Origin: Christensenellaceae bacterium OttesenSCG-928-K19
Lineage (GTDB): Bacteria; Bacillota; Clostridia; Christensenellales; Christensenellaceae
Length of the DNA stretch: 64,000 nt
Reading direction: 5' to 3'
Assembly (NCBI GenBank): GCA_030266015.1
Contig: JAJDHD010000006.1
Location: 1-64,000 of the forward strand
A program made the translations under genes and the position numbers. The notes beneath the pieces are model-generated. The model searched no databases, had not been told where the DNA came from, and saw nothing but the letters and a program-made list of their open reading frames with translations. Each line of letters begins with the position of its first letter. Position 1 is the stretch's first letter. Positions 51,219 to 55,328 of the stretch are shown piece after piece.

Positions 51219-52391
51219 CTAAACCGTCACCCTTTGCAGCATTCCGTTCATAAAAGCAATTGCCACACCAAAATTCGTAATAGGCACACCTTTTTCCTTC
51301 GCTTTTCCGATTTTTGACATCATATTTTGCCTGTTGATCATGCACGCGCCGCAATGGAGAATCATTTTGTATTGGCCAATATCCTCTGGAAATCCATGTC
51401 CAGAAGTTGTTTCATATTGCAGCGCCCCGCCTACATATTCATCCATCCATCCGGGCAGCTTTTCCCGCGCAATATCACCCTTCATTGCATGGTGGGCGCA
51501 CGATTCCGCAATAAGCACCTTGTCCCCTGGGCACAAGCTGGCTATAGCGCGCGCCCCGTTCATAAATTCCCTTATATCCCCTTTCTGCTTTGCCATCAGC
51601 ATAGAGAATGAAGTAAGCGGAATTGTTTTATCCAGATTATCGTTCACATATTTAAACACTTGCGAATCTGTGATTACCAGCTTAGGCGGGTCAGTCAACT
51701 TTCTTAACATAGGGAGCATATCTTCTGTTTTAACAGACACCACCTTACAACCGTTGTCCAGCAAATCACGCATCACCTGCACCTGTGGCAAAATCAACCT
51801 CCCTTTGGGCGCTTGAACATCCTGTGGCATCACAAGCATCACAACATCACCCTTTTGCACAAGGTTTCCGGTTATGCTTTCGTCCCCGGCATCTGCCACC
51901 TGCTCTGTAATCAGTTTTTTCAGCCTGTCAATCCCCTGCCCTGTTTTTGCGTTAATCAGCACTTCATTTTGTCCCGTGGCTTGCTGTTTTATACTCCTAT
52001 CAAACTGGTTCCACGCAATGATTACAGGAACGTCTTTTTCCCGGAGCAGCTTCATAATTTCTGTTTCAGTTGCAAAGTCCGTGTCCCCACCACGAATGAC
52101 AAAAACGGCAATATCCGTTTTGCCCGCCACTTCCCTTGTTTTTTTAACGCGTGCCCTACCCAGTTCCGACTCATCGTCAAGACCTGCCGTATCAATAAAT
52201 ACCACCGGGCCTATAGGCAAAAGCTCCATCGATTTATAAACAGGGTCTGTCGTTGTGCCGGCAACATCCGACACAAGCGCAATCTCGCTACCCACGATTC
52301 GGTTTATCAAGCTGGATTTTCCAGCGTTTGTTTTTCCAAAAAAAGTAATATGGACGCGGTTTGCCCGCGGTGTATCACTTAATGTTCCCAT
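51219..52391 (-). CDS. hydF: [FeFe]-hydrogenase maturation GTPase HydF
   Basis: 390 residues. The GTPase domain has ITFFGKTNAGKSSLINRIVG (P-loop), DTAGLDDESELG and NQFD in place of NKxD. The dimerisation domain follows, and the C-terminal cluster domain carries the three conserved cysteines: AESCAHHAMKGD and LHCGACMINRQ. HydF is the scaffold that accepts the di-iron subcluster and delivers it to hydrogenase. Starts 15 bases after hydG and shares its transcript. hydE and the hydrogenase genes are not in the window. Confidence 0.95.
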   Translation of the reverse strand: MGTLSDTPRANRVHITFFGKTNAGKSSLINRIVGSEIALVSDVAGTTTDPVYKSMELLPIGPVVFIDTAGLDDESELGRARVKKTREVAGKTDIAVFVIRGGDTDFATETEIMKLLREKDVPVIIAWNQFDRSIKQQATGQNEVLINAKTGQGIDRLKKLITEQVADAGDESITGNLVQKGDVVMLVMPQDVQAPKGRLILPQVQVMRDLLDNGCKVVSVKTEDMLPMLRKLTDPPKLVITDSQVFKYVNDNLDKTIPLTSFSMLMAKQKGDIREFMNGARAIASLCPGDKVLIAESCAHHAMKGDIAREKLPGWMDEYVGGALQYETTSGHGFPEDIGQYKMILHCGACMINRQNMMSKIGKAKEKGVPITNFGVAIAFMNGMLQRVTV

Positions 52392-52406: not shown

Positions 52407-53813
52407 TTAAAACCGGAAATCCCTTTCGCCTGCCTTGATGCGCGCAATATAATCCATTGCTTTGCCGCGCACCTTGTCGTCCGGAATCCCGCTTATTTGC
52501 TCCGTCACCACTTTGTCCGCCAGCGCTTTGAACTCTTCATCGCCATAATCCTCCGCGTATTCCGTCAATGTCAACAGTGCATTTGCCCCACAAATATTAG
52601 CAATCTGTCCGTTTTTGGCAAGCTTCATAAAACGGTCGCCCGTGCGCCCTTCCCTATAGCAAGCAGTACAAAAGCTTGGAATATAGCCGCTTTTTAAAAG
52701 CTCCTTCGTCATCTCTATCGGTGTCCTATGGTCTTCTATCTCAAACTGTGGCTTTTGCGTACCCATGGTGTAACCACCCACACCTGTCGCGCTGCCCGCG
52801 CTCACTTGTGAGATTCCCAGCTTTATCACGCTGTCCCGGTATTCGCCACCCTCCCGCGTGGAGAGAATCATGCCCGTATATGGCACCGCCATGCGAATGA
52901 TCGCGACGATCTTTTTATAGTCATCATCCGATACCGCGTGCTCAAAATCATTCTTTTTCACATCACCCGCATCGCGTATACGCAACATGGAAATCGTATG
53001 CGGCCCCACGCCGAATTTTGCCTCCAAATGCTCAGCGTGCATGATTTGTCCTACAAGGTCATAATGCCAATCATATAACCCATAAAGCACACCCAGGCCC
53101 ACATCGTCAATTCCCGCCTGCATGGCACGATCATGCGCCGTCGTGTGATATTCATAATTTGCCTTTGGCCCTTTAGGGTGCATATATTCATAAGTTGGCA
53201 AATGATACGTTTCCTGGAACAATATATATGTTCCAATGCCCGCTTCCTTCAGCCGCTTGTAATTTTCTACGGTTGTCGCCGCAATATTGATATTTACGCG
53301 CCGTATGGCGCCATTGTCAAATTTTATAGAATAAATAGTTTTGATACTTTCCAATAGGTATTCCATCGTGTTGTTCTTGGGATCTTCTCCCGTCTCCAGC
53401 GCCAAACGTTTGTGTCCCATTTTCTCCAGCGCACGTACTTCCTGCACAATCTCCTGCTGCGTCAGCTTTTTCCGCTCCATGCAGGATGATGCGTGATATC
53501 CGCAATAACGGCATTCATTTACACAATAATCCGAAAGATAAAGCGGTGCGAACATCACAATACGATTGCCATAGATATGCTGCTTTATTTGCGCGGCAGC
53601 AGCAAACATCTCTTCTTTCAGTTTGCCGTCCTCCACATAGGAGAGCACTGCTGCCTCGGTGTAGGAAAGCCCTTTAAAGGAGCGCGCCTTCTGAATAATC
53701 TCTTTCACATCCTGTTGGTCTTCCGCCCGCTTTTGTGCCTGCCACAATGTCTTCACAATCTCTTCATCATTGATGAATTCTTTTGCCATCTCTGACATTT
53801 TGTCATATTTCAT
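52407..53813 (-). CDS. hydG: [FeFe]-hydrogenase maturase HydG (tyrosine lyase)
   Basis: About 468 residues from the ATG at 53813 (GAGGAGGG upstream). Radical SAM enzyme that splits tyrosine to make CO and cyanide ligands. The N-terminal cluster is YLSDYCVNECRYCGYHASS (CxxxCxxC). The C-terminal dangler cluster motif is SFCTACYREGRTGDRFM. The ALETGEDPKN and STREGGEYRD segments also match HydG and separate it from the related ThiH. It is the first gene after a structured leader and promoter. Confidence 0.95.
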   Translation of the reverse strand: MKYDKMSEMAKEFINDEEIVKTLWQAQKRAEDQQDVKEIIQKARSFKGLSYTEAAVLSYVEDGKLKEEMFAAAAQIKQHIYGNRIVMFAPLYLSDYCVNECRYCGYHASSCMERKKLTQQEIVQEVRALEKMGHKRLALETGEDPKNNTMEYLLESIKTIYSIKFDNGAIRRVNINIAATTVENYKRLKEAGIGTYILFQETYHLPTYEYMHPKGPKANYEYHTTAHDRAMQAGIDDVGLGVLYGLYDWHYDLVGQIMHAEHLEAKFGVGPHTISMLRIRDAGDVKKNDFEHAVSDDDYKKIVAIIRMAVPYTGMILSTREGGEYRDSVIKLGISQVSAGSATGVGGYTMGTQKPQFEIEDHRTPIEMTKELLKSGYIPSFCTACYREGRTGDRFMKLAKNGQIANICGANALLTLTEYAEDYGDEEFKALADKVVTEQISGIPDDKVRGKAMDYIARIKAGERDFRF

Positions 53814-53846
53814 AATACCCTCCTCGTATATGCCTATCCACAAACC

Positions 53847-53937
53847 AAAAAGTGCCGTCCCAAAAGGACAGCACAAAAAATCAACCTCAGATTATGCCAT
53901 CCTCCCGCTCAGATTTCTCCTTGCGGTCAGAAACTAT
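53847..53937 (-). promoter_or_regulatory. Hydrogenase-maturase leader RNA with terminator/antiterminator switch
   Basis: The leader transcript starts near 53937. About 60 bases in lies a terminator: GTGCTGTCC (53874-53866), loop TTTTG, GGACGGCAC, then TTTTT. Upstream, GGATGGCAT (53902-53894) can pair along all nine bases with GTGCTGTCC when G-U pairs are allowed, so it would undo the terminator. Before it TTTCT pairs with AGAAA, and CCGC in that loop can pair with GCGG just downstream (53908-53905), giving a pseudoknot-like fold beside the antiterminator strand. I match it to no riboswitch class I know, and there is no T-box sequence. Confidence 0.65.
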
Positions 53938-53943
53938 ACCTTA

Positions 53944-53972
53944 ATAGTAATATAAACCGTTTCCCGCGTCAA
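53944..53972 (-). promoter_or_regulatory. Promoter of hydG-hydF
   Basis: TTGACG (53967-53972), 17-base spacer, TACTAT (53944-53949) on the minus strand, directly after the hexokinase stop. Confidence 0.7.
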
Positions 53973-53987
53973 TAACCAATATTCATC

Positions 53988-55250
53988 CTACCGGGAAAGC
54001 CCGGCAATCGCACATCCTTTTAAAACGGCATGGTCAATAGAAATAATATCCGGCTCATACCCACGCCCCCGCAAATATGCCATTAATACCTGATGCAGCT
54101 CCTCCTTAAGCCCAGGCATTTTTTCATAGGTTGTCCCTTCTATTGTCATGCAGAGCTTATTGTTGGTTTTAAACGATTTTTCCGCCACAGCCGCCATTTG
54201 CAACGCAGCAACCCGTGCAGCACGCAAAACTATATTTTGCAGCAATTCCCTGGCGTTTTCATCATCCTCATCGCTTAACATATGTTCCGCAATAATACCG
54301 CTTCCATCCATCAGGTATTCCGACACATCACGAGTTGTGAGGTTCGTAATCTCCTTCACTCCCCTTGTGCGAAAAACGCCCTCATCCGCAGCCGTATCCA
54401 GCGTATATTCACAAAGCGCCCCCAGATAAGCACCGCTTGTCATCTTCTCCGCGATCCCTATTTCTGGATGGATTGTGGTAGCGTCATATCCAAAATCTAT
54501 ATCCGAGCGTGGCAGGCGGCTGTAACTACCTGCCTCTGTATTAATTACCATTACCCCATCCTTGGGATACCCGGAAATTTTGCCGATTTTCGCATTGCTT
54601 TCCAAATAGCAACTGTTGCTTCCAGTACCAAGAATTGTGCCTGTAAACGCGCCATACCCATAATTCAATCGCTCTGCCTTGCCTGCAAGCGCTGTTGCCA
54701 CGCTATCATTGATAATGATAACCTTTACACCCGGCACGCCCATTTTTTCCAGCGACTTTTTTATTTCCGCCCCCAACTGTTTCCCTTTCTCACCCTTTAC
54801 CTGAACTTCTTTTGTGATTTCTATAAGCTCGGCGTCTATCTCTGGCGTTGATTTTGCACGATAGGCAAATGACATAACAATCTCTTTTGATTTTGCACAA
54901 TAATGCGCAATGTAACCTGCCAGTGCATCAAAAAACTGCTGGGCGTCCAGGGCTTCTTTCACACCGGGCATAATCTGTCGCTCCAACTTTCCCATCTGGA
55001 AATTGCCCTCATCATCAAAATGCGTAAGGGCTATCCTCAAGTTGGTGCCGCCTGCGTCTATGCAAATCACTTTTTTGTTTTTCTGTACATCTTCGCGCAG
55101 TTGTAAATAGCTAGGAAGCATCAAAAGCGAGCTTTCCTGCCCGTCCAGCCCTTTTTGCATTTCATCCAGATACGTTGCGATTTGCTCTTCTATTTTAATC
55201 GCATTGTATTCCATTCCATGCTTTTGTATGAATTCCTTTGCTTTTGACAT
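53988..55250 (-). CDS. Eukaryotic-type hexokinase
   Basis: About 420 residues from the ATG at 55250 (GAGGGA upstream). It is not a ROK kinase. It belongs to the hexokinase_1/2 fold known mainly from eukaryotes, with phosphate-1 KVICIDAGGTNLRIAL, the sugar loop MSFAYRAKST, catalytic Asp in IIINDSVATALAG, phosphate-2 GTILGTGSNSCYLE, NTEAGSYSRLPRSDIDF and the C-terminal adenosine motif AVLKGCAIAGL. Phosphorylates glucose or another hexose with ATP. Close homologues occur in some gut Clostridia, so this may be an old transfer or a shared ancestral type. Confidence 0.88.
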   Translation of the reverse strand: MSKAKEFIQKHGMEYNAIKIEEQIATYLDEMQKGLDGQESSLLMLPSYLQLREDVQKNKKVICIDAGGTNLRIALTHFDDEGNFQMGKLERQIMPGVKEALDAQQFFDALAGYIAHYCAKSKEIVMSFAYRAKSTPEIDAELIEITKEVQVKGEKGKQLGAEIKKSLEKMGVPGVKVIIINDSVATALAGKAERLNYGYGAFTGTILGTGSNSCYLESNAKIGKISGYPKDGVMVINTEAGSYSRLPRSDIDFGYDATTIHPEIGIAEKMTSGAYLGALCEYTLDTAADEGVFRTRGVKEITNLTTRDVSEYLMDGSGIIAEHMLSDEDDENARELLQNIVLRAARVAALQMAAVAEKSFKTNNKLCMTIEGTTYEKMPGLKEELHQVLMAYLRGRGYEPDIISIDHAVLKGCAIAGLSR

Positions 55251-55299
55251 TTCTATCCCTCGCCATTTCTTTTTGTTATCACCCTTTTGTTTCATTTTA

Positions 55300-55328
55300 A
55301 TTATATAATGCCACTGTGTATTACGCAA
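55300..55328 (-). promoter_or_regulatory. Promoter of the hexokinase gene
   Basis: TTGCGT (55323-55328), 17-base spacer, TATAAT (55300-55305) on the minus strand. It is back-to-back with the promoter of the divergent gene, with only 8 bases between the two -35 boxes. Confidence 0.75.

Follow-up and report, generated by a model that had tools for sequence, protein, structure and literature searches.

The RAT element recognised by LicT is a short leader hairpin that precedes a terminator, and its two internal loops are bound in a similar manner by a dimeric protein (PMC3369936). Ferredoxin hydrogenase genes have been reported to be preceded by tandem Wco riboswitches (PMC9481103). We analysed the leader of the hydG-hydF genes in a 64,000-nucleotide stretch of a Christensenellaceae genome (the window) and compared it with these and related systems. 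Like RAT, this leader contains a short hairpin broken by two internal loops ahead of a terminator (PMC3369936). However, the RAT loops are described as non-identical and asymmetric, whereas the loops found here are near-identical 2x2 loops, and RAT prevents termination, whereas the present hairpin is expected to promote termination by competing with a separate antiterminator. In BglG/LicT targets the antiterminator hairpin overlaps the 5' arm of the terminator; here the element ends at 53900 and the terminator starts at 53874. The RAT sequence also differs from that of the element.

With OFF-type terminator-coupled riboswitches the leader shares a conserved aptamer-like domain with covariation, tandem and ribosome-binding-site versions, and the mutual exclusion of element, antiterminator and terminator in computed folds; it differs from them in matching no Rfam 15 family and in that its effector is putative. 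The GA/RA mismatches at its helix junctions resemble those of a kink-turn, a candidate that was rejected because there is no 3-nt bulge and the window loops are symmetric (2x2, GA/GA and AA/GA). When the window and 20 further loci were searched against Rfam 15, including T-box, Moco/Wco and all listed riboswitches, no family reached its gathering cut-off and only tRNAs were found, in agreement with the preliminary description, which had recognised neither a known riboswitch class nor a T-box. The best sub-threshold match in the leader scored 19.2 bits against a cut-off of 45, and the architecture of Moco/Wco riboswitches is quite different. Searches of the open-access literature on hydG or FeFe hydrogenase together with riboswitch, structured RNA or TM1266 found no description of the element.

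In our view, with a probability of about 0.8, the window element belongs to a so far undescribed family of cis-regulatory RNAs through which Clostridia control their [FeFe]-hydrogenase maturation genes, working as an OFF attenuator with an effector. In our classification it represents a new terminator-coupled leader RNA family, in which the mechanism is of a known kind, the structure and gene set are new, and the effector is possibly new. Gut and industrial Clostridia owe much of their H2 production to [FeFe]-hydrogenases, and to our knowledge it is hardly known how the expression of HydE, HydG and HydF is matched to need. A conserved RNA switch on exactly these maturation genes would give a direct handle on their regulation. 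The features of the locus, all on the minus strand, are as follows.

53944-53972 (-): sigma-70 type promoter of the hydG leader, TTGACG (53972-53967), 17 nt, TACTAT (53949-53944); 9/12 match in a consensus scan
about 53937-53847 (-): whole hydG-hydF leader, 91 nt
53900-53931 (-): conserved 32-nt hairpin, P0 UCU/GGA, loop GA/GA, P1 CCGC/GCGG, loop AA/GA, P2 GGA/UCU and GAAA tetraloop; 40.1 bits with the R3 covariance model, RNAalifold and covariation on 26 leaders
53905-53908 (-): 3' strand of P1, GCGG, with its partner CCGC at 53926-53923; 96% of P1 cells paired, with GC/CG/AU/UA exchanges
53900-53904 (-): switching segment GAGGA, formed by the outer-loop GA and the 3' strand of P0, doubling as the 5' part of the antiterminator in mutually exclusive folds
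53892-53904 (-): 5' strand of the predicted antiterminator, GAGGAUGGCAUAA; predicted fold at -25.8 kcal/mol for a transcript that stops short of the terminator 3' arm
53864-53876 (-): 3' strand of the predicted antiterminator, comprising the terminator 5' arm and loop; pairing and fold prediction
53847-53874 (-): intrinsic terminator, GTGCTGTCC TTTTG GGACGGCAC and T tract, with a 10-bp stem at 53874-53852
53818-53825 (-): hydG ribosome-binding site, GAGGAGGG, read from the sequence
52410-53813 (-): hydG, radical SAM maturase (TIGR03955, 705.6 bits)
51219-52391 (-): hydF, maturation GTPase (TIGR03918, 523.8 bits)

The promoter, leader and terminator before hydrogenase maturase genes that the preliminary description had read from the letters are thus in place, and the two profile matches confirmed the downstream genes as hydG and hydF. 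The gene directly upstream of the leader (53988-55328, minus strand) encodes a eukaryotic-type hexokinase (Pfam Hexokinase_1, 77.9 bits; Hexokinase_2, 119.5 bits), which is unusual in bacteria.

The consensus of the hairpin consists of P0 (YCU/RGR), a GA/RA loop, P1 of 3-4 bp, an AA/GA loop and a variable P2. RNAalifold, run on 26 leaders with no structure given, returned the fold (((..((((..(((......)))..))))..))) with two-sided changes in 7 of its 10 pairs. Across these 26 leaders, whose members were picked by eye, the nested hairpin was paired in 93.1% of cells and carried 60 two-sided changes (16 ± 4 in shuffles), and its covariation score was 0.714, as compared with 0.282 ± 0.027 for shuffled alignments and at most 0.161 with the partners slid. 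P1 occurs as CCGC/GCGG, CCAC/GUGG, CGCC/GGCG, CAUC/GAUG, CACU/GGUG, GUCU/GGAC, CUCC/GGAG and others, and is reduced to 2-3 pairs in some leaders. The first UCU pairs with the second AGGA, the first AGGA with the second UCU, and CCGC/GCGG forms the helix between them. The two internal loops are one motif, CUGA facing RAAG, in opposite orientations, so that the hairpin is pseudo-two-fold symmetric.

The hairpin lies upstream of [FeFe]-hydrogenase maturation genes (the TM1266 regulator, hydE, hydG or hydF) across the class Clostridia. Each of the nine hydG-carrying genomes in the window's family has the leader core, TTCTGACCGCAAGGAG...TCTGAGCGG.AGGAYGG, which immediately precedes hydG in the window's genus and one other, and hydE of hydE-hydG-hydF in a third; elsewhere in the order, many other families have the same leader ahead of TM1266-hyd operons. 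In one sister genome (L002/L003; G001:C73) the hydG match is in three pieces (residues 1-110, 105-387 and 379-468) with extra DNA between them, which could be an assembly problem or the result of insertions. A sequence-heavy model (R1) gave one strong match per hydG-carrying genome of the family and, elsewhere among the 396 genomes of the order, scored no higher than about 23 bits. Searching the class with R1 added a single remote member, G442, in which the element precedes a TM1266-family gene and hydG, and in a search of the phylum with R2 the window was the only match. These wider matches were few because both models were too tied to the P1 sequence of the window's family.

The wider set comprised the upstream regions of the order's hydG operons and 110 TM1266 upstream regions from the class, the latter chosen since the TM1266 gene heads many hydG operons. 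Read by eye, these regions showed the same architecture in different letters. A strict descriptor was built from C/U-C/U-GA, a P1 paired in full, a short loop with A at its end, P2 of 3 bp or more, GA/AA, a likewise paired P1' and RARG. It was composed after the sequences were known and hence serves as a chance control and not as a blind test. Matches were found in 37 of the 110 class regions (in 30 shuffles, mean 4.0 and maximum 10) and, from the order and family, in 13 of 44 regions (0.8 in shuffles). Conservation and covariation among relatives, on which the preliminary description had let its proposal of a new cis-regulatory RNA upstream of hydG-hydF depend, are strongly present, and the proposal is supported, with a range that extends well beyond hydG-hydF leaders.

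A structural model (R3) applied to 40 whole genomes yielded 24 matches of at least 26.6 bits, all 24 at hyd or TM1266 loci; since 21 of them were training members, this search speaks for the specificity of the model and not for its sensitivity. In seven control genomes (G009, G013, G015, G045, G068, G088 and G402) nothing scored above 23.1 bits with R3. The next match away from hyd genes (G735:C132, 26.4 bits) lies within a coding region and was taken as chance; those in G009 (23.1 bits) and G740:C137 (24.3 bits) are probably chance as well. Searches of plasmids and viral contigs with the leader found nothing. Many TM1266 genes have no element directly upstream, and a check of the vicinity of 20 such loci gave one clear match only. 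At L263:10992-11024 (-), a 25.5-bit element lies upstream of hydG, just past a TM1266 gene on the opposite strand, so that the hydG leader there would run antisense to TM1266.

A script placed a terminator-like hairpin downstream of the element in 48 of 48 leaders, a few of them probably misplaced. The stretch that begins at the end of P1', includes RAAGG and runs on for about 10 nt pairs with the 5' arm and loop of the terminator. The cognate antiterminator-terminator duplexes had a mean of -12.7 kcal/mol, as compared with -9.7 kcal/mol for permuted partners, and none of 10,000 permutations was as good (48 leaders). For the window, the preliminary description had paired the strand GGATGGCAT with the terminator 5' arm over nine bases; this pairing holds and is predicted to cover 13 bp (53904-53892 with 53876-53864), and the antiterminator stems in the window can be extended to about 14 bp, into CGG. 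When the window transcript was cut before the terminator 3' arm, the antiterminator fold (-25.8 kcal/mol) kept P1 and P2 and opened P0, whereas the same transcript with P0 intact gave -16.1. The earlier suggestion of an aptamer-like element in competition with the antiterminator is consistent with these computed, mutually exclusive folds.

The 91-nt window leader folds at -32.6 kcal/mol, better than 200 of 200 dinucleotide shuffles (z = -3.74). This is the terminator fold, which in the full transcript is the most stable without effector (-32.6 vs -25.8); this weighs against the proposed switch in that it makes switching depend on kinetics. In 38 of 46 leaders, the fold predicted before the terminator is completed was the antiterminator, and stabilisation of the hairpin should therefore turn the genes OFF. 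The simplest reading of these models is a default ON state during transcription that would change to OFF once the complete hairpin, including P0, is stabilised.

The analysis shows the conserved structure with its covariation, its link to hyd genes and the leader-by-leader complementarity of antiterminator and terminator, whereas we infer that regulation is in the OFF direction and that an effector takes part. The proposed course of events is as follows. The first ~40 nt of the transcript would fold into the hairpin, in which near-identical, inverted internal loops (CUGA/RAAG) flank the short P1. A bound effector would stabilise the whole hairpin including the outer P0 and retain RAAGG within it; with RAAGG sequestered, the antiterminator would not form, the terminator would, and hydG-hydF would stay untranscribed. 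Without effector, RAAGG and the next bases would be free to pair with the 5' arm and loop of the terminator, and transcription would go on. Internal copies right before the hydG ribosome-binding site may act on translation in the same sense.

In 20 of 46 leaders a promoter-like sequence was found near the element (median distance 12 nt), as compared with about 10% of shuffled controls, which often puts the element right at the start of the mRNA. Tandem hairpins precede a single terminator in four TM1266 upstream regions (L138, L115, L117 and L129), where each copy has its own, different and complementary P1 (in L138, GUCA/UGAC followed by CGCC/GGCG). Copies before hydF are accompanied by a terminator in L093 and L095, and L090 is similar. 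Other additional copies immediately precede hydG, and in these the ribosome-binding site follows right on the 3' side of the hairpin; there are seven such sites, L132 being listed together with L241 as one.

L132:311-342 (-): copy adjoining the ribosome-binding site
L075:156-187 (-): copy adjoining the ribosome-binding site
L096:154-184 (-): copy adjoining the ribosome-binding site
L074:153-185 (-): copy adjoining the ribosome-binding site
L103:94-125 (-): copy adjoining the ribosome-binding site
L111:408-438 (-): copy adjoining the ribosome-binding site
L076:2996-3023 (+): copy adjoining the ribosome-binding site

These seven sites suggest a translational version of the element.

As to the effector, the two-fold symmetry of the hairpin tips the balance slightly towards a dimeric RNA-binding protein and away from a small ligand; TM1266, which most of the operons concerned encode, is the first candidate for this protein. 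A homodimer, possibly of TM1266, would clamp the inverted loops and repress the operon by autoregulation, and we give this explanation close to an even chance. The pseudo-two-fold symmetric loops around a short helix recall the targets of LicT and SacY (PMC3369936), and several element copies are found per operon. TM1266 (TIGR03959, PF21699), about 85 aa long and regarded as a putative regulator, lies beside hyd genes and heads many element-bearing operons; it has, in our reading of its domain matches, no DNA-binding domain, and its structure has been solved (2NZC, titled 'hypothetical protein'). Against a protein effector, TM1266 is not known to bind RNA, the element is missing from many TM1266 genes, and the window's family has no TM1266 gene in its hyd operon, the gene lying elsewhere in G004 and G005. 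In the window genome (G000), which is 72% complete, no TM1266 gene was found, an observation that counts against the protein and in favour of a small ligand. It appears rather unlikely that TM1266 itself is a new kind of RNA-binding regulator that clamps this hairpin with its two-fold symmetry and, by attenuation and by blocking ribosome-binding sites, tunes the maturation of hydrogenases across Clostridia. The element nonetheless offers a possible function for this protein, for which we found no role described, and the leader RNA could be used as bait for the effector, be it protein or ligand.

Alternatively, the two internal loops may bind a small molecule or metal linked to H-cluster synthesis (Fe2+, AdoMet, a tyrosine product, GTP or similar) and work the same OFF switch, as a riboswitch; this candidate we place somewhat short of even odds. 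The spread of the element over many families with no obligatory neighbour gene fits such a ligand, as do the tandem copies, which recall pseudo-cooperative riboswitches, and the use of one element in transcriptional and apparently translational versions. On the other hand, a plain hairpin whose two symmetric loops are short offers little room for a ligand pocket, and the regulated genes are hyd maturation genes only.

In the preliminary description the sensing fold was an H-type pseudoknot formed by TTTCT/AGAAA and CCGC/GCGG, which we now regard as very improbable. The window sequence allows both stems to be drawn, and UACCU/AGGUA in G442 resembled support for a related pseudoknot stem. CCGC/GCGG is indeed real, but as the nested middle helix, whereas TTTCT/AGAAA is not conserved: this pseudoknot-only stem was paired in 41.7% of cells and a UCU/AGG variant stem in 71.8%, against 93.1% for the nested fold. 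RNAalifold also yields the nested fold, although pseudoknots are outside its scope. The pseudoknot models R1 and R2 were dropped once the wider leaders showed nested P0 and P2. Equally improbable is an ordinary unregulated terminator combined with a conserved DNA operator (repressor site): the letters CUGA and AAGG are conserved near the promoter, but the reading was rejected because the P1 and P2 letters vary freely in complementary pairs. Copies also lie between genes, beside ribosome-binding sites and away from promoters, and antiterminator and terminator match leader by leader.

A variant form of the hairpin, UUCUGA-N4-CAY-GA-GGG-UUCG-UCCC-GA-RUG-NNAAGGCG, was observed in L153, L128, L114, L122, L164, L202 and L217, which come from several other families of Clostridia. 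It has extra bases between CUGA and P1 and probably represents a subfamily.
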